This document shows positions 164-63,339 of a stretch of DNA of 64,000 nucleotides, in pieces (positions within the stretch are counted from its first letter, which is position 1; each line of letters begins with the position of its first letter). Both the position numbers and the translations under genes were made by a program. The stretch lies in assembly GCA_918797485.1 (NCBI GenBank), contig CAKKNE010000004.1:5208001-5272000 (forward strand), in the 5' to 3' direction. The notes below the pieces were generated by a model. It saw nothing but the letters and a program-made list of their open reading frames with translations. It did not search any database and had not been told where the DNA came from. The stretch is from Pelagomonas calceolata. Taxonomy: Eukaryota > Sar > Pelagophyceae > Pelagomonadales > Pelagomonadaceae.

Positions 164-934
164 GCATGGACGAGGAGACCTCGGACGCGACGATCCAGTC
201 CGAGAGCCCCGGGCCGCGGGCGCCGGCGGACAGAGGTCCCATTTTAAACAGCGCGCGCGCCTGCTGTCTCCCCGACTGTCGGGCGGCGGACGTCGCGGTC
301 GTCGCCTTCTGGCTCGTGTCTGTGTGGAAATCAAATTTACGGCGCTTTCCTCCTGAATCGACGCGTCGACCTTCACGCCATCAACGCGACTGCTCGATGG
401 CGTGGCGGTGTCGGTTCCCCACCGCTCGACGGAGCCAGCGCGGCCACGTCATCGCCGAGAAATGACTTATGTGTCGATATCGCCCTCGCCTCGAACCTGG
501 CGCTCGCAAACAGCGCCTACATACCCTACGCCGTCCCGACGACGTTCGTCGTCGTCGTGAGCTGCGTGACGGCCCTCTGGTTGCTAGTGCGGGTCTTCAC
601 ACGGGGCAGCCGCGCCATCTCGACCACGGGAGCGACCTACTTGGATCTGCACCTCTTTTGCGTCTACATCGCGGGCGTCGCGCTCGTGATCGCAATCGTG
701 TTGGGTCTCACGCTCGGGCCCGACAAGGCGCGCAAAGTTTCGCGACGTTACGACGACGAGGGCGCCGGCGACGACGAGCGCGTCTTTCGCGAGGGCGCGT
801 ACGTTCGCTGCGGGCTCCTCGCGTTGGTCCTCGCGGTCTTCGGCCTCGGCGTCCGGCTTCGTAGGGTCGCCGGCGCGCCCACGACGCGCCGGCTCGTGTC
901 GAGGTCCATCGAACTCACGTCGCACGCGAGTTAG
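164..934 (+). CDS. 3' part of a polytopic membrane protein (5' end outside window)
   Basis: The last two exons of a gene whose 5' end lies left of the window. The reading frame after the truncated introner ending at 163 runs 164-317, is interrupted by a second introner, and continues in about 460-934 to a stop. With a donor at 318 and an acceptor after 459 the frame closes, but that acceptor is tentative because this element has lost its normal right end. The product has at least four hydrophobic stretches (near VAVVAFWLV, TTFVVVVSCVTALWLLV, LFCVYIAGVALVIAIVL and LLALVLAVFGLGVRL), separated by short basic or acidic loops. I do not recognise the family. Both visible introns are introners, one in each orientation. 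That this is one coding gene is well supported by frame closure and hydropathy; function is unknown. Confidence 0.6.
320..459 (+). mobile_element. Introner copy with lost right terminus
   Basis: Begins CTGTGTGGAAATCAAATTTACGG and follows the full-length copy through the GCCGAGAAATGACTTA segment, but the 3' part carrying the TTGATTTCCACACAG terminus is absent. Splicing must therefore use another AG. An intron 318-459 keeps the frame open; its exact borders are inferred. Confidence 0.7.
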
Positions 935-6696: not shown

Positions 6697-8160
6697 ATGG
6701 CCGCGCTCGAAGAAAAGTTGGCCGCGCTCTCGACGCACCCCCCAAAATTCGCGGTCCGCGGCCGCTTCGTCCACGCGAACGCGCGGCGCGCGGGCCTCAT
6801 CGAGTTCGTCGAGGACGGGCTGATCGTCGTCGAGGACGGCGCCATTATTGCCGTGGCCAAGGACGCGGACCAAATCAAGGCCGTGCTGGCGGAGCACCGG
6901 CCCCAGGACGTCGTCGAGCTGGCCGAGACGGAGTTCCTCGCCCCCGGCATGGTCGACTGCCACGTGCACGCGCCGCAGTACGCCTACTCGGGCACGGCGA
7001 CGGACAAGCCCCTCATGGAGTGGCTCCAGCACTACACGTTCCCCGCCGAGAAGCGGTGCGTCGACGTCGACTACGCGAAGACGCTGTACAGCGCGCTCGT
7101 CGACCGGCTGCTCATGCAGGGCACGACCTGCGTCGCTTTATATGCCACGATCCACGTGCCCGCGACGAACGCGCTCGTCGACATCTGCCTCGAGAAAGGA
7201 TTAAGGGCGGTCGTGGGCAAGGTCTGCATGGACCGGCACGGCGGCGACGGCTACGAGGAGACGACGGCGGAGGCGCTCGCGGGCACGCGGGCCTGCCTCG
7301 ACTACATACGGAAGGCGCAGCCCGGCGCGTCCGGATTATCGCGGCTCGTGCAGCCGTGCGTGATCCCGCGGTTCATCCCGACGTGCACGCCCGAGCTCCT
7401 CGCGGGTTTGGGGGACATCGCGCGGGAATCCGACGACGTCTGGGTCCAGAGCCACGCGTCGGAAGCTCCCGACCAGGTCAAGTTCGTCGACACGCTCCAT
7501 CCCGGAAAGAGGTGCACGGAGATCTTCGAGTCGCACGGGCTGCTGACGGACAAGTGCGTCATGGCGCACTGCGTCTACCTCGAGGACGGCGAGCTCGACA
7601 CCTTCGCGCGCAAGGGCGCCGGCGTCGCGTGCTGCCCCCTGAGCAACGCCATCTTCTCGCTCTCGCCGGGCTGGCACGCGTTCCCGTTCCACAAGGCCCA
7701 CGCCAAGGGCGTGCGCGTGGGCATGGGCACGGACATCGCCGGCGGCTATGCCGCGTCCATCCTCGTGGCCTGCCGCCACGCCGCCGTCGCGTCCAAAGCC
7801 TGTGCAGAAATCAACGTCGCGTCGATGGCGTGGAAGCGTGGGGCGCCCGAAATTTGATTTTCACGCAGGTCTAAGCACGACATGGGCGAGAAGGACGTCG
7901 ACTACAAGGACGCGTTCTGGGCCGCGACGCTCGGCGGGGCCCGCGCCCTGGGCCTGGACACGGTCCTCGGCAACTTCGAGGTGGGCAAGCAGTTCGACGC
8001 GGTGCGCATCAACTGCGAGGCGGGCAACTACGACACGTTCCCCTCGGCGATCCACCCGTGCTGCCCGTCGCGGCTGGAGCACGACTTCGAGAAGTTCGTG
8101 AACCTCGGCGACGACCGCAACATCGCGAGCGTCTACGTCCAGGGCAAGCGGCGCCGCTGA
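6697..8160 (+). CDS. Guanine deaminase
   Basis: Two exons (6697-7790 and 7869-8160) give 461 residues, the usual size for the family. The enzyme hydrolyses guanine to xanthine plus ammonia in purine salvage/catabolism. Amidohydrolase motifs appear in order: PGMVDCHVHAPQYAYSG (metal-binding HxH) near residue 85, TFPAEKR, FIPTCTPELL, WVQSHASE, MAHCVYLEDGEL, CPLSNAIFSLSPGW and GMGTDIAGGY carrying the metal-binding Asp. The single intron is an introner (7800-7868) preceded by its duplicated target. A donor GT at 7791 and acceptor at 7868 restore VASKHDMGEK; without splicing the frame stops 22 codons into the element. A nucleoside hydrolase lies 2 kb away, also in purine salvage, but an operon-like link is not implied in a eukaryote. 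It converges with the selenoprotein gene. Confidence 0.92.
7800..7868 (-). mobile_element. Short introner, intron of guanine deaminase
   Basis: 69-bp element, CTGTGCAGAAATCAA...TTGATTTTCACGCAG, flanked by imperfect target copies (GTCCAAAGC before, GTCTAAGC after). The predicted intron is 7791-7868, GT-AG. Its interior matches the reverse complement of the 61271 copy (CAAATTTCGGGCGCCC), so these two form a subfamily. Confidence 0.88.
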
Positions 8161-12588: not shown

Positions 12589-15500
12589 ATGGGCCGCTGC
12601 CCGGCGGAAGGCCTGGAGGCGAGCATCCACGTGCTCTTCCTCTTCGGCGTGGCCGCCTTTTTGGCCTGGGACAGGTACAAGCGCGACGACCTGGACCGGC
12701 CGAATAGAAAACAGGCCGACTGGGCGACGGCGCTCGCGCGCTTCGTGTGCCGCCGGCCGCTGGGCATCGTCTCCATTATTGCTGCTTACGCCGCGTACCT
12801 CTCGCTCGCGGCGTTCGTCGACGTCGACTGCCTCGAGGCGCGCTCCTTGCACCTCGTGACGGCGCTCGAGCAGTACGCCCGCCAGGACGAGGTCACGTCC
12901 TACAACCTGGACAACTGGGAGAGCGCCCAGAAGGCGTCGGTTTCCGCGGGCCTCTGCGCGCCGGCGCGCCGGCGCCTCGCCGCCGTCGGCGACACGGAGC
13001 ACTTGAAACTATTCTACGCGGCGCGGAACCGGCCGGCCGACGTCATCACCGCGAAGTCGCTCCTGGACGCGCGCATCCTCGAGGGGCGCGTCACGAGCGA
13101 CGACGGCTTCGACGACCACTGCTACGTCGCCGGCGGGGCCGGCGGCGCGAACCGCCGGTGCTCGAACGCCGCCGTGCGCAGCTGGACCGACCCCTTCTTC
13201 GCGGGCGGCGCCGTCGTCTCCAATATTGACGCGGCGGCCGCCGAGTTCGCGGAGTCGGCCGAGGGCCGCTACTTCTTCGACGTCTTCTTCACCATCAAGA
13301 ATCCTACAAGCAACGTGTCGCGGTCCGAGATCTTCTTCAGCCTCACGGACCGCGAGGCCTTTCGACAGTGGGCCAAGGACTACCTCCTCCCGACGCGCGG
13401 CGCGGCGCAGAAATCAGCCGGGAGCACGTCGCGTCGATGGCGTGCACACGAGAGTTCCCACACACAGGCTCGAACGGGCGTCGACGGCGGACACGCGCGT
13501 CTGCTGGCTCAACGGCGACGTGAACGACATTGAAGTGGAGGAGGCCGTGACGCACGACGCGCTCCTGGCCATCGGGTCGCTCATCTTCGTCTACCTCTGC
13601 ATGATCGTCCACACGCGCAGCCCGATCGTCGCGACGGTGGCCATGGCGCAGGTGCTGGCGTCGGTGCCGATCGGCGTCTACCTCCACCGGGCGCTCTTCC
13701 ACGTCGACCAGTTCTACGTGCTGAACTTCCTGGGGCTCTTCATCATCGCGGGCATCGGCGCGGACGACAGCTTCCTGCTCTTCGACGTCTGGAAGGCCGA
13801 GGTGGATCGCGGGCCGTCGCGGACGCTGCCGGAGATTTTGGCGGCCGCGTACCGGGCCGCGGGCGCGTCCATGGCCGTCACGTCGATAAGTAGCGCGGCG
13901 TCGTTCTTCGCCAACACCTACTCGACGCTGCCGGCGCTGCGGTCCTTCGGCATCTTCTGCGGCACGCTGATCATGGTCAACTTCGCCTTCGTCATGCTCG
14001 TCTTCCCGGCCGCGCTCGTCATGCGGAGCCGCATGCGGCCGCCGGCCGAGGACGCGCGCGTCGACGTCGGCGGCGAGGACGTCGTCGACGCGTCGTCCGT
14101 GCAGGTGCTGGAGCGGCCGGCGACACCCACGGGCGACGAGGGCGACGCGAACCCCCTCGCCCTGCGCGCCGCGCCGGCGGCGCGCTCGCGTTCGCGCTCG
14201 GACGACGACGAGGAGCGGGAGCCCCTGAACCTCTGGGGCCGCGTGGCCGTGGTCCTGGCGACGCCGGCGGAGCTCGCCGAGGCCTACCAGCGCTTCAAGA
14301 GCTGGGCCGCGATCGACAAGTTCTTCGGGCGCACGCTCCCGACGGCGGTGAAGCGCTTCCACAAGGTCATCCTCGTCGCGGCGCTGGCCCTGGCGGTCAT
14401 GGGCTTCGCGTCGACGGCGGCCGAGCTCAAGGCCGACGACGAGCCGCCGCGCTTCTTCCATCGCTCGCACAACCTCGGGCTGGTCTACGAGCTCAGCGAG
14501 GACTACTTCGCGGCGGGCGCCGAGCGGGGGCTCTCCTCCGCCGGCGGCGTCGTCAACGTCGACGTCGAGGCGCCGACGCCGGGCCCGACGCCGCGCCCGG
14601 TCGCCGCGCCGTCCGCGCCGACGCCGTCGCAGACCACCCCCAGCGCAAAGCCGACCGTGCAGCCCCTCCCCCAGCCCACGCCCCGGCCCACGCCCGAGCC
14701 CACGCCCAAGGCCAGCAACCCGACGGGGGCGCCCGTCTTCGCGCCGACGCCAAAGCCGACGCCGCTCCCCACGCCGCGGCCCTCTTCCGTGGTGCCGGCG
14801 CCCACGCCGCCCGTCGGGCCCGTCGCCCCGCAGCCGACGGCCGCGCCGACAATCCTAACGGACGAACGATTCTGCAACGGCGCGGGCACGAGTTATTACG
14901 ACGACGGCGGCGCCATTAAGTGCGAGTGCTTCGCGGGCTTTGCGGGCACGCGGTGCGAGACCCAGGACGTCCAGTATCTGGATCCCGGCGCCATGGTCAC
15001 CCTCGACCTCGTCCACGGCCTCAAGCAGCGGCCCGGCAAGCCGACGGCGCGGTACCGCTTCGGCAAGCCGCGGTACCGGGGCGCCTTCGACCTGGCCGAG
15101 CCGGAGGCCCAGGTTTATGTGAGGGACACGTGCCTGAAGGCCGTCGGCAAGTCGAAACTCAAAGCCAACGCCGTGCATAGCATCTGCGTGCTCTCCATCT
15201 TCGAGACGGATTTTCTGGCGCCGATGGGGCTGGCGCTCCCATTGGGTAGGGACGACTTCCGGAACCTCTTCGCCGAGTTCCGGCAGTCGAACGTGCTGCT
15301 CGACGGATCGCGCGTCGAGGAGTGGATCGGCTTCGACTGCGCGACGAACGAGGCGACGTGGGTCCGCGACAACATCGTGCTGACGGTCCGCAAAGATGCG
15401 GCGGTCGAGGACCGACTCGACGTATTCCAGGAATGGCGCGACTACCTGGACGACCGCGCAAGCGGGCGGCCGGCCGGCGTCGGAAGAGCATTACTTGCCT

Positions 15501-22959: not shown

Positions 22960-25142
22960 ATGAACGTGCGGCGCCCACCGGAAGCACCGGACGACCTGCG
23001 GCGCCGGCCCGGGAGGGCGTTCTCGTCGAAGTATGCCCTGGAGCTGCCACCGCCCGTCAGCGGCAGCTTCGCGACGCTCCCCCGGCGCCGCGCAGCGGTG
23101 GCGAAGAAGCAGGCGGAGCTCCGGCGCCAGGCGCTGGTCGAAGTTGCACTGGAGCGCCAGATCTGGCTCGAGAACGCGGAGAAGGACCGCATTGCGCGGA
23201 CCATCGTCCGCATCGCGCGGCGCCTGGACGGGGAGCGCCGGGCTGTGATTGCTCGGGAGGACGCGGCCTTCCGCGCCGGCGCGCGCGAGGCCGCCGTGGC
23301 GATCGAAACGTGCTGGCGCCGGCACGCGCGGTCGAGCGCCTGGCCGCGCGTCAAGGCCGCTTATTTTAGGGTCCTGGACGCGTGGGCGCAGCTGTACCGC
23401 GCCGCGCGCGAGGACGCGGCGCTGCGAGCGCGGCGACGGGCGGCGCGGGCACAGGTCGCGACGCCGCTCCAGACCCTGTGGCGCGCGCGCCTCGCGCGCC
23501 GCGAGCTGGCGCGGCGGCGACGCGCGCGCGACCTCATGACGAGATTCATCACTGAAGGAGTCATACCGCTCCAGACCAAGTGCCGCATGCTCCTCGCGCG
23601 CCGCGAGCTTTTACGGCGGCGGCGCGAGCTCGAGCGGCGGCGCCGCGCGGAGCGCGCGCGGCAGCAGGCCTACGTCATCGCGACGCGCGCGGTGCGGCGG
23701 TGGCTGCGGTGGCGGTTCCTCCAGAAGGTCCGGCGGTGCGTGCATCTCCACCTCGCGCGGCACCGGCTGCTGCAGCGATCCATGCAAACCGTCGCGAGCG
23801 CGGTCGCGCGACCGCCGGTCCGCGAGGCGGTCGCGCTCGTCGCGGTCGCAACTGCGTGCGCGGGCGCTTCCATGAGCGAGGCGGTCGCGGTCGCCGCGGA
23901 GCGGGAGCGCGTCGCCGAAGAGCAGCGCCGCTGGGAGGAGGAACTGCGACGCCAGATCGCCGCGGCCATCGAAGCGGCCAAGGCCCGCGTCGCGACGCCG
24001 CTCCAGACCCGGTTCCGCGCGCGGCGCGCGCGGCGGCGCTACGTCGCGATCTGTGTGGAAATCAAAATTTTACGGCGCGTAGGCGTCGCGTCGATGGCGT
24101 GGTGATGCCGGTTCCTCACACAGGTCGCGATGCGGGCCGCCGCGGTGCGCATCGCGGGCTGGCGGCGGCGGCTGGCCTGGGCGCGGTTGTGCGCGGCCGA
24201 GGCACGGCGGCGCGAGGAGGAACGGCAACGGCGCGCGCTGCAGGTGATCTGGAAGGTCGTCGTCCCGTGGCTGGCGCGGCGGGCGCTGCGATTTAAGAAG
24301 CGGCGCCTCGCGGTGCTGCGAGGGATGATCCGGGTCAAGGGCTACGCGCGGCGGCAGGCGACGCGCCAGGATCACTGGTGGGACCTGGCCGGCGAGCGCG
24401 CGCTCGACGTCGCCGGGGAGAGCTACCGGGCGGCGAAGGAGGCCGCTCGCCTCGCGACGGCCATGGCGCAGCACGCCGTCACGGTCTGTGTGGAAATCAA
24501 AATTTTACGGCGCGTTCGTGCTGAATCGCCGCGTCGTCCTCCACGCCATCGATGCGACGCCTGCTCGATGGCGTGGCGACGCCGGTTCCTCACTGCACGA
24601 CGGAGCCACCAAAGGTAGCGTCATCGCCGAGAAATGACGTAGTGAAGAATTATCGGGTGCACCCAACGCACTGGTTGATTTCCACACAGGTCACGGTGTG
24701 GAAACAGACCCAGGAGCTCGACCGCCGCCTGAACATGCTCATGATCGCGCGCGCGCAGCGCCTCGCCGCGCGGGCGGCGAAGCGGGTGCGCGAGATCGAC
24801 CTCAGCGGCGTCCCCAAGTTCTGCCGGACCCTGCCGCGCCGGTTCGCGCTGAAGCGCTTCGAGGACGAGCGGTTGCAGATCCTACAGCGGAGCACGCAAC
24901 GGGTCGCGTTCCTGAGGCAGCTCGCGGCCCGCGCGCCGAAGCCGGCCGAGGCCGCGCCCGCGCCCGTTTTCAAGCCGCGGTGGAAGAAGCCGCGGACACG
25001 GCCGCCACCGCCGGAGCCGGAACCGGCCGCGCCGCCCGCGCGACGAGCGACGCGGCTGCTCAGCGCCGTGCGGTGGGGGCGCATCCAGGCGGTGCACGCG
25101 GGGACGGCGCCGACGAGGCCTCCGCCGCCGCCGCCTTGCTGA
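22960..25142 (+). CDS. IQ-motif-rich, Arg-rich helical protein
   Basis: Three exons (22960-24042, 24124-24477, 24690-25142) encode 629 residues; the ATG at 22960 is the first in frame. The protein is dominated by Arg/Ala helices with repeated IQ-like units, for example VATPLQTLWRARLARREL, IPLQTKCRMLLARRELLRR, AYVIATRAVRRWLRWRFLQK and VATPLQTRFRARRARRRY. These are the spacing of calmodulin or light-chain binding IQ motifs. The C-terminus is Pro-rich (TRPPPPPPC). Both introns are introners with perfect 8-bp target duplications, and splicing exactly rebuilds YVAMRAAA and AVTVWKQT. IQ-repeat proteins of this type are often cytoskeletal or flagellar; the function here is not known. Confidence 0.72.
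24051..24123 (+). mobile_element. Short introner, intron 1 of IQ-rich gene
   Basis: 73-bp element CTGTGTGGAAATCAA...GGTTCCTCACACAG between perfect target copies GTCGCGAT (24043-24050 and 24124-24131). Intron 24043-24123, GT-AG. The interior is deleted relative to the 204-bp form. Confidence 0.93.
24486..24689 (+). mobile_element. Full-length introner, intron 2 of IQ-rich gene
   Basis: 204-bp element with ends CTGTGTGGAAATCAA / TTGATTTCCACACAG and perfect target copies GTCACGGT (24478-24485 and 24690-24697). Intron 24478-24689, GT-AG. Nearly the same throughout as 55511-55713, so both are recent. Confidence 0.96.
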
Positions 25143-29963: not shown

Positions 29964-30289
29964 CTGTCTTAGTCTGAGTCTCTGAGAGTCAGAGAGAGTA
30001 CTTAAGCGGTCACGAACTGAGAGTCAGAGAGTGAGATGACACTTGGTGAGATGACAGTGACTTGGTTGTGTGCTGCCAGGTTAATTGTGATGAGTTTCCT
30101 GCGGCCGATGGATAGGTCCGTTTCCTACGGCGTGAACGCTGTTAAGCTCGCGAGGCTCGCGCGCGAGGGCGATGGCACGAAAAACCCGTTTTGATGCGGT
30201 CGCGCGCACCGTGTTTCTTTCCGTGCTACAAGTCGACAGGCGAAAAAAAACAGCCCGGTTTAGTGACTCGGAGGTTCACAAAAGTCTTC
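29964..30289. other. 326-bp spacer with GAGAGTCAGAGAG repeats
   Basis: Less GC-rich than the coding sequence. GAGAGTCAGAGAG occurs at about 29981 and 30022, and GAGATGACA.TTGG at about 30033 and 30049. Carries the 3' flank of the giant gene and the promoter side of the small hypothetical. No gene seen. Confidence 0.5.
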
Positions 30290-33200
30290 TTACCCGTTCT
30301 CGAGCTCCACCGAGAGCCCGTCGTACGGCCCGAGCCCGTACATGTTCTCGAGCGTGTCGTCCGCACCGCCGCCGTTGGGGTCGAAGAGCCACGACAAAAA
30401 GTCGTAGAACTGGTACGCGTTGGCAAAATGACCAGCCGTCTGGCCGCCCTTGTTCTGGTGATTCGGGTTGGCGCCCTTCTCGACCAGGAGCTTCGCGATC
30501 TTGACGTTTCCGTTCTGGGCTGCTACGTGTAACATAGTGTTACCGTGTTCGTTCACCTTATTGAGATTGAACGTCTCACGTTCGTAGGCATCGACGTAGG
30601 CGGTACCAAAGTCTTCGACGTAGGGCACCTTGACGATGGCCGGGTCGAACTTCTTCTTGGCAATCGGCGCCAGCGCGTCCTTGAGGCGCGAGACCTTGCC
30701 GTGCCTTACTAAAGCCATGACCTGTGTGGACATCAAATTTACGGCGCGTTCGTCCTGAATCGCCGCGTCGACCTCCACGCCATCGACACCTGCTCGATGG
30801 CGTGGCGAAGTCGGTTCTTCACACAGGCCATTACCTCGTCGAAGTCGAGCGGCTTCTCCTCCTCCTCCGCCGCCTCCTCGCCCTCTGCAGCGCCGGTCTT
30901 CGAGTACTGGTCGAGCGGCGTCGCGCCCGCGGCGGCCACGCCGGTCTGGCCAGTCTGCATGAAGACGCGCATTTGCTTGTTCCTTTCTTGTTCGCTCGCT
31001 CTTAATTTGGTAGTCATGTTCAAAATCTTCTTCCGGTGTAAGCGGTGCTCGATACCTGTGAAAATCAAAATTTTACGGCGCGTTCGTGCTGAATCATCGC
31101 GTCATCCTCCACGCCATCGACGCGTCACCTGCTCGATGGCGTGGCGATGTCGGACACAGCTCAATACCTAACGTATTGCGCAAATCGTCATCGTCCAGAT
31201 CGTAGAGGAACGCGCCGTCGACTGCCGCGTCGACGAAGGCCTCGCGGTATTGGCCCAGCGACAGCGTCTGGAGCCATCTGGCGACGTCGTCAACCGACCA
31301 AGCAGAAACCTTCAACGTTTCCTGTCCTGGCATCTGGCCGGGCTTGAGCGACGGCTTGAAATCCTCGCCGCCGAGCTTGTCCTGGTAGGCCGTGGGCCCG
31401 CCCTCGATGCTCTGGGCCGGACCCGCGCCGCCCCCGCCGCCCATGGCCTGGTTCTGGTGGAGCGCCGCCATGACTGTGTCCTGCGTCGACACCGTGCGCA
31501 TCGCCCGGATCATGTTCAGCGACGAGAAGTAGGTCATGCTCATGGACATGAAGCCGAACTTCATGAGCGTCTCCGTCGACTGCATGAGCTGCGCCGCCTG
31601 CTTCTTCTCCGCCACCGAGGGGCCGGAATAACCGCCGCCGCCGCCTCCGCCCACACCGCCTGCCGTCGCCAAAGCCAGCGCGTTCGCGTCGCCCTTGCGC
31701 GCCTGCTCGAGGAGATCGCCCCGCGCCTCCTGTCGCCGTCTTATCTTGTGCAATTCGCGCTGCTGCTCCTCCAACAAGACGACGAGCTTGCGCTCGAGCG
31801 TCCGCAGTTGCTCCTCCTTGCCCTGGCGCGCATGGTCGAGCGTCGCGAGCTTCCCCTCCAGACCGCCCAGCTTCTCGCGCCGCTCCGCGATCTTCGCCAG
31901 CATCGCGCCGAACTCCCGGTCCAGCCGCATCTTCTGCTCCCTTAATTCATATTTTGCCTCCTCGTCGAGCACGCCGACGGCCTCGGCCTCGATCTTCGAC
32001 AGCTGGTGCATCTCCTTCTCGAGCTGCGCGACGCCCTGCTCGAACTCGGATATCTCCTCGAGCAGCGCCTCGACGCTCTCCTCGGCGGCGACCTTCTCCT
32101 GCGTCAGCAGCGACACCTCGCTCTGGAGCCGGGTCGCGTGGAGTTTGTGCTCCAAAAGCATTTGTCTCCCAAATTCGATGCCCTGCGACTGCGACTTCGA
32201 GAAGAGGAACTTGTGCCTCTCGTTTTGCGCCCGCCGTCTTCCGAGGTGTCCGCGGTACGCGCGCTCGACCGTCCGCGCCGCGTAGGAGCGGTTCCGCAGC
32301 TCGAACGTCGCGTAGCGCGCCGTCACCTGCCGCCAGAGCGTTTGAAGCATTGTGGCCGCCCGGTGCCGCCGCTGCTGCATGCCCTGGACCAGCAGCCGCG
32401 CCAGCAAGCCGCGTGCGGTCCGTTGCATCTGCGCCGCCGCCGCGTGCCTGTGCACAAATCAACCAGTGAGTCGAGTGCACGACGGGAACGCGGTCGTGCT
32501 GACTCGGTCGAGCGGTGAGGAACCGGCACCGCCACGCAGTCGAGCAGGCGTCGCGTCGATGGCGTGGAGGTCGACGCGACGATTCGAAGGCGCCGTGAAA
32601 TTTCATTGATGCACAGCGACGTGCATCGTCTTCAGAAGGGTAAAGAAGCCCCTGCCGCTAAAGCCGCGCCAGGCCCGCTGGATGACGTGCGCCGCCCAGA
32701 TCTGCCGCATCTTCACGAGGAAGGCCTGGCGCCCGCGCCAGCCCCGGTAGGCCCGCTGCAGCATGACCGTCGCGCGCTCCTCGCGCAGCCGCCGCACGAC
32801 GGTCCACGCGAGGTGGTTCCGGAAGCAGGCCTGGATCGTCTTCGCGGCGAACTCGAGGCGCTGGAGCCGCTTCTTGTTCCGTTTCAAGCGCCAGGCCATG
32901 TACTCCTTGACCTCGGGGTACTCCTGCGGGTTCGGGTAGATGTGCGAGCCCTCGCCGGGCTTGTAGACGACGTTGTCCTGGCGCTCGAAGGCCGGGTTCC
33001 GCGGGTCGAGGACCGTCTTGAGCGGCGCGTCGTCGCGGCGCTTCCGCGTCTTCACGGACGCGAGCGGGTCCTCGGCCTCGGCCGCGGCGCGCCGCCGGCC
33101 CAGCGCCGCGCCCGCGCGCTCCGCCGACAGGTTCGAGAAGTGGACCCAGTCCGGGTCCCCGTACGCCGCGTTGTGCCCTATTTTGGAGTCGCGCACCTTG

Positions 33201-52509: not shown

Positions 52510-54065
52510 CTAGGAGGAACTAGGCATATCGTCCGAGTCGTGCAGGTAGCCGGTCACGTTCCGCGACGCGCGCACCAGCTCGACGCCGCGCGTCGCGTAC
52601 CACTCGGCCATCTCTGTCCTGGCCTTGGACGCCGCGCTGTCGGAGTACGACTTCGTCCACGCGTCCCTCCGGCCGGGGAGGCCGTGCGACGCGCGGAACA
52701 CGTCCACGACGCCGGCCGCGAACTTTTCACCCCGCAAAGAGCAATAGCCGGGCAGCCAATCCGGGTAGCCGTAGCCCTCCGCGTTCATCTCGACGTCCGC
52801 CAAGTCGTGGAAACAGTGATAGGCATTGGGGGTGAACGCCGTCGCGAAGAGCTCTACTTTCGCCACGCGTCGACCGACGGCGCCGTTCGTGAGCTTCTGT
52901 GGCCTGTGCACAAATGAATCAGTGATTCGGGTGCGCCGCGACAATTTGATTCATGCACTGATCGAGGCCGCATCTCCGGGAAGCGGCGGCCGTGGGCCCT
53001 GCGGATCGCCGGCGACGCGACGTCCAGGTCGTTGCGGGCCGCGATCCGGAAAAAAGGCTTGGCGTCGAACTCGCCGGCGAAGAGCCGCACGTCGTCTAGT
53101 ACAACCTAGGTAGAAATCAAAATTCACCTCGACTGCTCGATGGCGCGGCGGTGCCGGTTCATCACCACTCGACGGAGCCAGGACGGCCGCGAGCACCCGG
53201 CTCACTGGTTGATTTCCACACAGATCACGACGAAGACCCACCGCACGCCCAGCGCCTGGACGTGCGCCGGCAGGACGAACTTGAGCTGCGCCACGTAGCC
53301 GCCCGTCCCCTTCGTCGGCACGCGCGGCACGTCGCACGCCTCGCTCAGGTAGGGCCTGCGTGCAAGTCGACCGGTGAGGCAAGCGCCGCGAAATTTGTCT
53401 TTGCGCGCTGGGTCGGGCAGGCGCGGGCCGTCCTCCTCCCCGTCGATGGGGCCGTCGATGGCCTCGTCGAGGTCGGGGTCGTCGCCGCAGCGCTGCCACG
53501 TCGGCACGATGCAGGCGCGGGGGCGGAGCATCGCCCAGTTGCGCCGCGCGACCTGCACGCGCCCGGCGTCCAGCAGCCCCGGCACGACCAGCAGCACGTC
53601 GAGCGCGCCGGCGTCGACGACCGGCCGTCGCGCGGACGCGGCGCAGCGCCGCGTCGCCGCCGCCTTGCGCTCGGCGGCGTCGACCGTCGGCCGGGGCGTC
53701 GGCCGTGGCGTCGGGCTCGGAGTTGGCGTGTTGAGCGCGACCGGCGCCGGCGTCCGCTTCGTCCGGCGCCGGCGCCGCCCCTCGCCTCCCTGGCACGTGC
53801 CGATGCCGTACGCGGCGCGCCACGCCTTCTTAAAGTTGCAGTCGTCGTCGACATCGCACTCCCTGTCCTGGTTCGTGCACCTGCCCTTCTTGCGCGGCGT
53901 GGCCGGCGCGGCGGCCGGCAGCGGAACACCGCCGGCAGAAACACCATCCCCGGACGGTTCGGCGCCCGCGAACGGCAAGGTCAGGAGCTCTTTGAGTGAC
54001 TGTGCGCTGGCCTGCAGCAGGAGCGCTGCGGCGGACACCACTTTGAGCAAGGCAGCGCCCCGCAT
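52510..54065 (-). CDS. DUF707-like secreted/luminal glycosyltransferase-type protein
   Basis: Four exons (54065-53419, 53355-53232, 53105-52969, 52903-52510) give 433 residues. The ATG at 54065 starts a signal peptide (MRGAALLKVVSAAALLLQAS). A Cys/Lys-rich segment and a Thr-Pro linker (TPTPSPTPRPTPRPT) lead to the main domain: LDVLLVVPGLLDAGRVQVAR, VAQLKFVLPAHVQALGVRWV, FVVLDDVRLFAGEFDAKPFF, LDVASPAIRRAHGRRFPEMR and KVELFATAFTPNAYHCFHDL followed by AEGYGYPDW. The order (LDDVxLxxxxF; a DVASPAI strand; a VExFATxFTxxAxxC segment; GYGxPxW) is that of DUF707-type proteins, thought to be Golgi/ER glycosyltransferase-like. All three introns are introners, two with GC donors. The family call is tentative; coding status is firm because every junction closes the frame. 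Confidence 0.68.
52904..52960 (-). mobile_element. Short introner, intron 3 of DUF707-like gene
   Basis: 57-bp element CTGTGCACAAATGAATCAGTG...CAATTTGATTCATGCACTG. Intron 52968-52904 on the minus strand, GC donor (GCCTCGAT), acceptor GTGCACAG. Target copies are diverged. Splicing gives FPEMRPQKLTNG. Confidence 0.82.
53106..53223 (+). mobile_element. Introner, intron 2 of DUF707-like gene
   Basis: 118-bp element CTAGGTAGAAATCAAAATT...GGTTGATTTCCACACAG; one TIR is decayed. Intron 53231-53106 on the minus strand, GT-AG, restoring WVFVVLDDVRLF. Target copies AGTACAAC / ATCACGAC are partly diverged. Confidence 0.88.
53356..53410 (-). mobile_element. Degenerate 55-bp introner, intron 1 of DUF707-like gene
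   Basis: On the gene strand CAGCGCGCAAAGACAAATTT...CGACTTGCACGCAG, with 7/8 matching targets GCCCGACC / GCCCTACC. The predicted intron 53418-53356 is 63 nt, GC-AG, and has no in-frame stop, so retention would add 21 residues. Splicing gives DGPRLPYLSEAC. Confidence 0.7.
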
Positions 54066-54764: not shown

Positions 54765-56321
54765 TTACCTTCTAGTAAGAACGCCGACACAAATGCGCTC
54801 GAGCCGGTCCGCGAAGGCGTCGAGCGAAAACAAGTCCCGGACCCGCTCGCGGCCGCGCTCCCCCATGGCCCGCCGCCCCGCCGCGTCGCCGAGGAGGTCG
54901 GCGACGGCCCGGGCCCAGGTTTGGGGATCGGGCGCCAGGAGCCGCCCGGTCACGCCGTCGACGACGGACTCGCGCGGCCCGCCCGAGTCCACGGCGACGA
55001 CGGGCGTGCGCGCGTGCATCGCCTCGAGCGGCACGATGCCGAAGTGCTCGTTCTCCGGCCTGTGTTGCAGCGTGAGGCCCCGCGTCGATGGCGTTTGCAG
55101 GGGACGCCGCGTCCGCGCGTATACAGCAGGCACGCGCAGCGCGCGAGGAGCCGCGCCTTCTCGTCGCCGGAGACGGACCGGCGCTGCGTGACGCGGTCCG
55201 CGACGCCGAGCCGCGCGGCCAGCTCCTCGAGCTCGCGCGCGTGCTCGACGTTCTCCGGCAGGTCGGGGTCGTAGCCCCCCGCGAGCACGAGGCGGACGCG
55301 CGGCGGCAGCAGCGCGAGCGCCTCGACGGCCAGGCCCAGGTTCTTCTTCCGCTCGAAGCGGTTGATCGAGAGGAGCAGCGCCGCGTCCCGCGGCGCCTCC
55401 GCCACCTCGGCGTCAAGGCTCAGGGGCGGGTAGAGCACCTCGGGCGCCACGGCGAGCCGGGGGAACGCCCGGCGGAAGACGCCCGCCGTGAACCGCGAGT
55501 TCACGAGCACCTGTGTGGAAATCAAAATTTTACGGCGCGTTCGTGCTGAACCGTCGCGTCGTCCTCCACGCCATCGACGCGACGCCTGCTCGATGGCGTG
55601 GCGGTGCCGGTTCGTCACCGCTCGACGGAGCCGGCACGGCCGCGTCATCGCCGAGAAATGACTTAATGAAGAATTTTCGGGTGCACCCGACGCACTGGTT
55701 GATTTCCACACAGACGAGCACGACGTCCGCGAGGCCCGTGCACGTCTCCTCGCCCCAGTCCAGCGGCGCGCGGTAGAGGCGCGTGAGCGGGTTTTGTCGG
55801 TTCACGCAGAGCAGTTTGTCCGGGTAGTGGCAGTAGAAGACGACCGGCGCGGCGCACGCCGCCCGGGCGACGGGCACGGCCGTCGCGACCTGGTCCACGA
55901 CGACGACGTCCGGGCCGTCGCGCGCGGCGCGCAGCGCGACCGCGACCATCCGCACCGAGGCGCAGAGCGCGTAGCACCTTCCGAGAATCCGCTTCGGCAG
56001 CCAGTCGCCGGCGACGACGACGCGCAGCGTGCCGTCGCGGGTCTCGTCGAAGCAGCGCCGCGGGTCGTGCCGCGCCGTGTAGATCGTCACGTCGTGGCCC
56101 CGGCCCCGCAGGCCGAGCGCCGCGTCGACGACGAGCCGCTCCGCGCCGCCGATGCCGAGGTCCGGGTGGGCGAAGGCGACGCGCAGCTTGCCTTGGCGTG
56201 GTTTTGGTCGTCGGCGGCGACGCCTTACGAGTCGTATGAGCAGCATTGCGGCTGCTGCAGCGGCCAGCAGGAGCCAAGTTAGCTGGCAGCGGTGTAATGC
56301 TTTCTTGCACAGCAGAGACAT
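54765..56321 (-). CDS. ALG2: ALG2, alpha-1,3/1,6-mannosyltransferase of N-glycan precursor synthesis
   Basis: Three exons (56321-55722, 55510-55119, 55059-54765) give 428 residues, the usual ALG2 size. The enzyme adds the second and third mannoses to the dolichol-linked oligosaccharide on the cytosolic ER face. A TM anchor (TWLLLAAAAAAMLLIRLV) precedes VAFAHPDLGIGGAERLVVDA, IYTARHDPRRCFDETRDG, VAGDWLPKRILGRCYALCA, VVFYCHYPDKLL, VLVNSRFTAGVFRRAFP, LLLSINRFERKKNLGLAVEA and the GT4 nucleotide-sugar motif HFGIVPLEAMHARTPVVAVD. The first intron is a full-length introner with perfect targets. The second is a 59-nt GC-AG intron; splicing rebuilds LLYTPENEHFGIV, which matches ALG2 from other eukaryotes. 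Confidence 0.94.
55060..55118. mobile_element. Degenerate introner-like intron 2 of ALG2
   Basis: The minus strand has donor GCGCGGAC and acceptor GCAACACAG, with the core ACGCCATCGACGCGG inside. It is 59 nt and GC-AG. TIRs and target copies are poor, so the introner origin is inferred from the core and the acceptor; the splice itself is supported by conserved flanking protein. Confidence 0.68.
55511..55713 (+). mobile_element. Full-length introner, intron 1 of ALG2
   Basis: 203-bp element with both intact TIRs and perfect targets ACGAGCAC (55503-55510 and 55714-55721). Intron 55721-55511 on the minus strand, GT-AG. The element is antisense to the gene here, but its close twin at 24486 is in sense with its host. 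Confidence 0.96.
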
Positions 56322-60901: not shown

Positions 60902-63339
60902 TTACTCCTTCCCCGTGTCGAACAAGCGCGCCTTCTCCGACAGGTTCCGCGCCCGCGAGGCGTCTTCGACAATGTCGTCGGGTACCTCATAGTCATCGTC
61001 AGTAACGCCGACGGACGCCCCGAACAGGCAGAACTCCAGCAGCCCCGCCACGTCGCCGTCGTCGACGGTTTTGACGTCGACGGAGAACAGGGACCGGTGT
61101 GAGACTGCCGCGTCCGGCGGGTCATTCGCGAGGTGTACGACGAGCGTCTTCGCCTTCGGGTACCTCTTCTTCAGGAGCTCGCAGCACGCGACGAGGTCCT
61201 GGGCGCCGTCCTCATCCAACGAATCCCCCGTCAGGGGGCAGTTCACGAACGACCCGCACGCGCCGCGGGCCTGTGTGGAATCAAATTTCGGGCGCCCCAC
61301 GCCATAATTCGCAGGATAGCCTAACTCACTGGTTGATTTCCACACAGCCGCGGACCCCATCCCTATAAACAAAGCACACGGCCGCACCCTCCTCCCTCAG
61401 CGCGGCGTCGAGCCGGATCACGCGTCCCGCCAGGTCGTCCAACACTTCGCACTGCGCGCTCACGGGGTCGTCGAACTGAAAGTTATCGACGGACGCCCAC
61501 TTCGTGCGGTGGTTGTAGGCGAAGCGCCGCACGTCGTCGTCGGTCTCGCGCCGCGCGTTCACCGTTGAGTCGTCCGGGCACGGGTCGCCGCGGGCCCGCG
61601 GGCGCCGCGGCGTCGGGTCGCAGACGTAGCGGCCCGTGCGCTCGTCCTGCGCGAGGTAGACGAAGTCGCGCGCGTCGACGCACTTGCCCGCGTGCAGGCC
61701 GCGACGCCGTCGTCCAATGGAAAGGAGCCGGGCTTGCACTCCCTTCTACATTCGTCGAGCCACGCGGCCGCGGCTTGATCCGAACCGGCGGCGATGACGC
61801 GCCAGCGCGGCCCCGCGAGCAGCGTCTCCGCCAGCACCGGGAGGCCGCGGCCCGCCGCGCGGCACCGCTCCGTGAAGCGGTCCGCGAGGCCGCGCGGCGC
61901 GCCCGCGAGCGGGTTGCCGCAGAGCCGGAGCGCCTTTAATGGTAACGCCGCGAGCGCCGCCGGGATTTGCTTGAGGAGGTTGTCGCGCACGTCGAGCTCC
62001 TCGAGCTTCGTGAGCTGTATAATGTTCTCTGGGAGCGCTTTCAGCTGATTCCCGCGGGCCCTGCGCGGAAAGCGACCGGTCACGTCGCTTCACAAAGAAG
62101 AGGGACGTACCTGAGACAGACCAGGTTACAAAACTGGCCGCAGATTTCGTCGGGCAGCGCCGCGAGCCCGGCCCGGTCGAGGTAGAGGCGCCGGAGGCGC
62201 GCGGGGAACGCCAGAGCTTGCGGCGCAAAGGCCGCGAATGGCGCGTCGCACAAAGACAGCGCGCCGTGGTCCCGGGGCGCTCGCGCGCGGCCCTCGTCGG
62301 CCGCGGCCCACCACGCGCGCTCGAGCGCCGTCCGCGGCGCGCTCCCTTCCGTCTTCGTCCACGGCTTCCGGTCGCCCGCGTACTGCACGACGACGGCGTC
62401 GTCGGGCCACACTGCATTAAGGTCCCGCTCGCCCGGCCGCGGCCGCCAGTTGTACCGGAAGGGCAGGCGCTGCCCAGCGACGTCCTTCTCGAACCAGTCG
62501 TCGAAGAACTCGTTCAGGAAGCCGCCGACGTCATTTGAGGGCGTCTTCGGCGCGAGCTTGAGCATGGCCTCGAGCGTATTTGACGAGGGCGTCAGGACCA
62601 GGACGCCGCCGTCGAAGGTGTCCGGCGGGTAGAGCGCCGGCGCCGCCGCGAACGCGACGTCGCGGCACGTCGCGAAGAGCTGGTCCGCGCTCCCGACGAC
62701 GAGGCAGTCCGCGTCCAGATACACAATCTTCCCGTAGTCTTCCAGGCCCCAGACCCGTAGCTTCGTCGACCGCACGTCACTCGCATCGCGGGGGTTCTCT
62801 ATGTTCTCCACCTCGACGACGCGCGTCGCGCCGGCGCCCTTGAGCCGCTGGCGCGTCGCTGGCGTGACCGACCGCGCCACCATCGCCACGCGCGCCTTCT
62901 TCGTGTGCTTGGCCAGCGACCGCAGCAGCGCCTCGGCGCCGGGGGCGTAGGCCTCGCTACCGAGGAACGTCGCGTAGGCGTCGGGCCGCGTCTCGGCGGG
63001 CGGCTCGTAGACGGGCCCGTCGTCGTTCGTGTACACCACCCCACCGTTCGCGCGGCACTCCGCCTCGACGCGCGCGCGCTGCGCGGCGGCGTCGCGGTCG
63101 ACGGGGATCTTCGTGCCGCCGTTCTTGGGCGGCGGCCGCGGCAGCTTTGAGGAGGGCGGCACCTTGACCGTCTTCGAGGGCTCGCAGAAGTCGTCGGCGG
63201 CGGCTTTCTCGGGCGGCCGCCGCTCGTTCTCCTCGTCGTCGACGGCGTTCGTCCAGGTGACGCTGCCGCGCGCCTCGCCGTGCGTTAAGGGCACGGCCTT
63301 GGGCGGCGCCGTGTCACTGAGCGGGCGGGCGCGCCACAT
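60902..63339 (-). CDS. Glycogenin-like GT8 glycosyltransferase fused to leucine-rich repeats
   Basis: Exons 63339-62111 and 62060-61706, then an ambiguous small intron, then to 61356 and 61270-60902; about 750 residues. The GT8 domain (about 110-330) has AYATFLGSEAYAPGAEALLR, KIVYLDADCLVVGSADQLFA (DxD near 206), DTFDGGVLVLTPSSNTLEAM and VVQYAGDRKPW, as in glycogenin/PGSIP. A second half has LRRs (ALAFPARLRRLYLDRAGLAA, LKALPENIIQLTKLEELDVR, LPLKALRLCGNPLAG) and a Cys-containing C-terminal region. The intron 62061-62110 is a conventional GTACGT...CGCAG type, the only clearly non-introner intron here. The frame shifts near 61700 (after FPLDDG): either a 23-nt or a 59-nt GT-AG intron would close it. 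The last intron is an introner. Function: probable glycan transferase. Confidence 0.78.
61271..61347 (+). mobile_element. Short introner, last intron of GT8-LRR gene
   Basis: 77-bp element CTGTGTGGAATCAAATTTCG...GGTTGATTTCCACACAG, with targets CCGCGGGC / CCGCGGAC. Intron 61355-61271 on the minus strand, GT-AG. Shares the CAAATTTCGGGCGCCC interior with the 7800 copy. Confidence 0.93.
61647..61705 (-). other. Ambiguous small intron or degenerate introner in GT8-LRR gene
   Basis: On the minus strand the frame changes between FPLDDG and DERTGRYVC. GTCGCGGC + CTGCACGCGGGC...CTCGCGCAG (59 nt) has CTGC/GCAG ends like an eroded introner. Alternatively GTCGCGG...GGCAAG (23 nt, 61705-61683) would keep KCVDARDFVYLAQ-like sequence. 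A single-base error is also possible. Confidence 0.4.
62061..62110 (-). other. Conventional 50-nt spliceosomal intron in GT8-LRR gene
   Basis: Minus strand GTACGTCCCTCTTC...CTTTCCGCGCAG; removal joins CNLVCLR to ARGNQLKALPEN, continuing the LRR. No TIRs, target duplication or introner core. Confidence 0.82.

Follow-up and report, generated by a model that had tools for sequence, protein, structure and literature searches.

Introners of Pelagomonas calceolata with a predicted splice rule that takes the donor from the target duplication and the acceptor from the element

The introners of Pelagomonas calceolata form a family that very probably follows a single splice rule, in which the donor comes from the target-site duplication (TSD) and the acceptor from the terminal inverted repeat (TIR). 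The introners are non-autonomous, MITE-like DNA transposons with 15-bp TIRs and 8-bp TSDs. Upon transposition, 8 bp of the gene would be duplicated. A TSD whose first two bases on the coding strand are GT or GC would provide the 5′ splice site through its upstream copy, with the CACAG tip of the element as the 3′ splice site. The predicted intron is the upstream TSD copy plus the element, so that the mRNA would keep one target copy, unchanged. Read outward, each TIR finishes in CAG, and the element should therefore be spliceable in both orientations. Insertions without a GY (GT or GC) on the sense strand are presumably removed by selection.

Element structure and the introns of the window

The family was followed up from a 64,000-nt stretch of contig CAKKNE010000004.1 (the window; positions without a contig or locus name refer to it), and a genome-wide search for copies, TIRs and TSDs, suggested by an earlier sequence-only reading of the window, recovers it in quantity. 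The exact 15-bp TIR occurs 790 + 772 = 1,562 times in the genome, against 0 for a reversed-pattern control; in the window, the 15-mer has 15 matches with at most 3 mismatches (0.39 expected). Full-length copies (~203 bp, at least 90% identity) number at least 31–40 and are spread over all six contigs/chromosomes; except for the exact TIRs, such genome copy counts are lower bounds. The full-length copies mostly differ by 2–6% from the consensus, which indicates that much of the family is young. Sampling required that at least one of the two TIRs be exact, and old copies are therefore under-sampled. The copies fetched from the six contigs are about 56 to 204 bp long, and of 88 copies 56 have two exact TIRs; the TSD is of fixed length, 51 copies having exact 8-bp duplications. 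In the copies where the acceptor TIR is mutated, the acceptor AG is always kept (23/23). The TIR copies without a partner (L052, L066, L085, L088 and the window copy at 320) are truncated elements or have no recognisable far end. TIR variants of the type CTGTGCRCAAATCAA are seen at L081:1798-1948 and L074:2171-2222 and in two window introns (32448-32624 and 52904-52968); they probably represent an older introner subfamily with the same GY rule.

The introns of the window are collected in Table 1. The sequence-only reading had placed perfect 8-bp repeats around the elements at 24486-24689 and 24051-24123, and the repeats are present at both; the element ends it gave for the two sites are found at the first, whereas the second has an altered right end. 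The same rule had been extended to twelve introns in all. Removal restores the frame at the twelve (and at 55060-55118, thus 13/13, with no stops), but perfect 8-bp repeats occur only in the three at 24478, 24043 and 55511, the rest showing 1–4 mismatches in ungapped comparison. The list had missed the degenerate copy at 55060-55118. The statement that introners account for nearly all introns of the window is roughly right, with the exception of 62061-62110 and probably of 30226-30293 (GTAAGA...TTGTAG), which is probably also a non-introner intron.

Table 1. Introns and introner copies in the window (TSD pairs separated by a slash; mismatches counted between the two copies)
Feature	Positions	Strand	Donor	TSD	Remarks
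Predicted intron	24478..24689	+		GTCACGGT 24478-24485; exonic second copy GTCACGGT 24690-24697	204-bp introner 24486-24689 (CTGTGTGGAAATCAA...TTGATTTCCACACAG); both TIRs exact; excision matches frames, no stops
Predicted intron	24043..24123	+		GTCGCGAT 24043-24050; exonic copy GTCGCGAT 24124-24131	73-bp short introner 24051-24123; right TIR altered, end CGGTTCCTCACACAG; frames match
Older introner intron	7791..7868	+	GT	Diverged, GTCCAAAGC / GTCTAAGC, probably one indel	
Degenerate introner intron	13395..13467	+	GC	4 mismatches	End CACACACAG; frame margin 47/55
Introner intron	30722..30834	-	GT	GTAATGGC/GTCATGGC, 1 mismatch	
Introner intron	31056..31167	-	GT	GTATTGAG/GTATCGAG, 1 mismatch	
Introner intron	32448..32624	-	GC	2 mismatches	TIR variant CTGTGCA...
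Degenerate introner intron	52904..52968	-	GC	4 mismatches	
Introner intron	53106..53231	-	GT	3 mismatches	Acceptor end TTCTACCTAG
Degenerate introner intron	53356..53418	-	GC	GCCCGACC/GCCCTACC, 1 mismatch	
Introner intron	55511..55721	-		Perfect, GTGCTCGT	203-bp element; ALG2-like mannosyltransferase gene
Degenerate introner-derived intron	55060..55118	-	GC		59 bp; ALG2-like gene; core CGCCATCGACGCGG; acceptor AACACAG; excision restores LLYT/PENEHFGIVPLEAM
Introner intron	61271..61355	-	GT	GTCCGCGG/GCCCGCGG, 1 mismatch	
3′-truncated introner copy	320..470	+			Stops after GAGAAATGACTTA; acceptor lost, no CACAG end
Ordinary non-introner intron	62061..62110	-			CAG/GTACGT...CGCGCAG/; removal restores leucine-rich repeat

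Strand, frame and protein restoration

All exact 8-bp TSDs (51/51) start with GT or GC or end with AC or GC (that is, GY on the other strand), a property shared by 36.9% of the 8-mers in the coding sequence of the window. The coding strand was called in the flanks of 92 copies by a codon-usage model trained on six long ORFs of the window (Pfam-checked). In 56 of the 57 informative copies, the strand so called is the one on which the TSD has its GY end, in line with the earlier claim that the donor derives from the target duplication; the duplicated PP1 loci may be counted twice here. The sole mismatch (L004, 203 bp) has its GY end opposite to a weakly scored coding call. Among the flank-called copies, GY is present at both TSD ends in 28 and at neither end in 0.

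Could this pattern be a target-site preference of the transposase instead of selection for splicing? The antisense end of the TSD is mildly enriched in RC (about 33% vs. 22% in coding sequence, given GY), and no copy has GY at neither end, even among the few with a weak coding signal. The coding strand is, however, invisible to a transposase, yet the GY end is on that strand in 56 copies against 1, a match that points to the survival of spliceable insertions; in addition, GT makes up 59% of the donors vs. 23% available, as expected if splicing prefers GT. A preference in place of selection is thus rather unlikely. A weak preference is possible as an addition to selection, though not as a substitute for it.

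In the frame test, reading frames were called separately in the 120 bp on either side of each copy. Once the TSD and the element are removed, the left and right frames agree in every scorable copy (68/68, from six contigs), although 58 of these introns have lengths not divisible by three. Phases 0, 1 and 2 are represented by 33, 12 and 23 introns, against 33.0, 9.7 and 25.3 expected from the codon positions of GT and GC (p = 0.68), and they differ from a uniform distribution (p = 0.008); this is the argument from phase known from Aureococcus and Micromonas, repeated here in another species. Both orientations relative to the genes occur, as the symmetry of the TIRs had been said to allow, but unequally, the CCAGTG end being at the donor in 47 copies and the AATTTT end in 22 (a bias of about 2:1). 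One may conjecture that the AATTTT end gives a better pyrimidine tract when it lies beside the acceptor. The TTGAT of the acceptor TIR was considered as an obligate branch point, which is not supported, since 10 copies do not keep its A at −12.

At the protein level, the gene for a PP1 catalytic subunit (L012) contains two introners in opposite orientations. With both excised, the product aligns without gaps to human PP1-gamma (624 bits) across the two junctions, one of which sits inside the GDVHG metal-binding motif. The second introner has a GC donor, and its exonic and intronic TSD copies differ only synonymously (TTG>TTA, CTA>CTC). Together with the frame counts, this alignment supports the earlier proposal that an intron made of the left 8 bp and the element would restore the codon series. 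In the window, excision of 55511-55721 and 55060-55118 restores the ALG2-like gene; a glycosyltransferase domain spans the latter junction, with a gap-free alignment there to a solved glycosyltransferase. A Pfam domain likewise runs across the junction in a PP2C gene (L011) and in an alpha/beta hydrolase (L005). The PP1 gene is duplicated, at the C6 end (L012) and at the C3 end (L025), with 99.0% identity over 3.2 kb, and both copies carry the same two introners, which suggests that the insertions predate the duplication. The two loci fit a block duplication described for P. calceolata, which involves the ends of contigs 3 and 6 (PMC9481584).

The protein products bear on the other ways of reading the borders. 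With both splice sites inside the element (donor CTGT/GTGGAA), each insertion would add 12 nt to the mRNA (the TSD plus 4 nt). The frame would be kept as well, 12 being a multiple of three; the TIR does contain GTGTGG; and a precedent exists in a related alga, in one family of Aureococcus sp. (PMC9860276, Fig. 2F). Such an internal donor needs no GY in the TSD, yet the exact TSDs all have one, on the sense strand. It would also place four additional residues beside the GDxHG metal site in PP1, with a second insertion behind LLLA, whereas the product without the 12 nt aligns ungapped, which rules out this variant for both PP1 introners; for the family, it is highly improbable. The elements might alternatively be ordinary gene-disrupting MITEs, with the apparent genes as pseudogenes or false ORFs. 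Against this stand the frames of the PP1, ALG2-like, PP2C and alpha/beta-hydrolase genes, intact only after excision, and the agreement in 68 of 68 copies, which leave this reading hardly any probability. The same is true of a spread by reverse splicing of intron RNA: it does predict that intron borders and element ends coincide, but none of the 8-bp TSDs, the 15-bp TIRs or the two gene-relative orientations (47 vs. 22), and its chances appear negligible.

Donor recognition and the search for a transposase

With the donor in the TSD and the acceptor in the TIR, the sampled family has 88 GY donors, 52 GT and 36 GC, i.e., about 41% GC donors in this sample. GT amounts to only 23% of GY in coding sequence, where GC is the commoner, and GT (59% of the introner donors) is therefore still favoured as donor. 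Positions +3 to +6 cannot be distinguished from the coding background in either donor class (G at +5, 27%). In the exon, GT donors are indistinguishable from the background at positions −3 to −1. The GC donors depart from it at −3 and −2 (uncorrected p = 0.002 and 0.034), but the departure is not in the direction of CAG. The search for U1 snRNA gave two candidates, both scoring under the Rfam curated cut-off, and the first begins with AUACUUACCUG, the standard 5′ end. The genome seems to have the usual splice sites, as in the short intron at 62061-62110 with its canonical donor CAG/GTACGT inside a leucine-rich-repeat gene, plus introner donors with little beyond GY. In a control on the donors of ordinary introns, attempted genome-wide, most of the non-introner gaps were intergenic or lay in weakly scored exon.

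Since nothing beyond GY is informative in the donors and GC accounts for about 41% of them, even though the U1 candidate has the standard end (ACUUACCUG), the choice of the donor might be set by the element, through a helix of the 15-bp TIRs or the fixed sequence that starts 9 nt into the intron, and not by pairing with U1; we regard this as a tentative and rather doubtful idea. In Amoebophrya, a helix between the repeats at the intron ends was proposed in similar form (PMC7789003). The 59-bp copy in the ALG2-like gene has no recognisable TIRs, which indicates that a TIR helix would not always be needed; when hairpin covariation was looked at, copies with both TIRs diverged were few. In some copies of the CCAGTG orientation, CCAGTGAGT occurs just inside the donor-side TIR, at about +24 to +32 of the intron. 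It is close to a U1 match (CAG/GTGAGT minus one base) and could be a decoy or a docking site.

The introners are presumably mobilised by a transposase; an autonomous partner sharing the introner TIRs was not found in the genome. TSDs are 8 bp long in hAT and in P element/KDZ transposons and 8–11 bp in Mutator and Merlin. One hAT transposase gene was found (C4:4499880-4502042), in single copy. Its element spans 3.65 kb (L062:3050-6700; C4:4499549-4503199), with perfect 14-bp TIRs, CAGGGCAGCAGAAG, and a perfect 8-bp TSD, TTGCTCGC; the transposase frame is open (721 aa) and the protein is without relatives elsewhere in the genome. This element is not an obvious partner of the introners, since its TIR differs from CTGTGTGGAAATCAA. 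The P element/KDZ profiles PF21787 and PF18758 have no matches in the genome, with the controls silent too, nor do the Mutator/Merlin profiles PF10551 and PF12762, for which a missing match does not show absence. Viral contigs with two 21–25-nt end patterns were also looked for, and none was found.

Relation to known introners

In the work of Huff, Zilberman and Roy, the introners of Aureococcus anophagefferens are reportedly short DNA transposons that are non-autonomous and have TIRs and direct repeats of constant length; they are said to carry one splice site and to co-opt the other, with a phase bias that follows the co-optable sequence. The Pelagomonas family is alike in its pelagophyte host, its TIRs, its fixed direct repeats and its predicted TSD-co-opted splice site, a likeness in described structure. 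The mechanism class is known from Aureococcus, and introners are already reported in P. calceolata (PMC9481584). In strain RCC100, an intron-length peak near 210 bp was attributed to Aureococcus-type introner elements (Guerin et al. 2022, PMC9481584), which makes the earlier comparison with Aureococcus an apt one; the main text of that genome paper states no TIR, TSD or splice rule.

In Symbiodinium microadriaticum, the introners have TIRs, carry the 3′ splice site and obtain the 5′ one from the TSD (PMC9860276, Fig. 2B), the same arrangement as predicted here, with a TSD of 4 bp there and 8 bp in Pelagomonas. Introner family 4 of Aureococcus sp. has an 8-bp TSD in common with Pelagomonas, but it brings both splice sites with it and lengthens the transcript by 12 nt (PMC9860276, Fig. 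2F), whereas the splicing predicted for Pelagomonas adds nothing. In Amoebophrya, the introners have inverted repeats able to pair the intron ends, boundary repeats of 3–5 nt and non-canonical splice sites, and no U1 was detected (PMC7789003). Inverted and direct repeats are common to both, while Pelagomonas has GY–AG borders, 8-bp repeats and a U1 candidate with a standard 5′ end.

No route to large-scale intron gain is better supported than introners. In P. calceolata, the rule is unusually testable: copies are young, TSDs intact and sites number in the hundreds, the genome is compact and chromosome-scale, and any departure from exact splicing would show up in conserved genes, PP1 among them. 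The presence of GY-only donors beside a U1 candidate whose 5′ end is standard raises the question of how the spliceosome would use an arbitrary stretch of coding sequence as a 5′ splice site.
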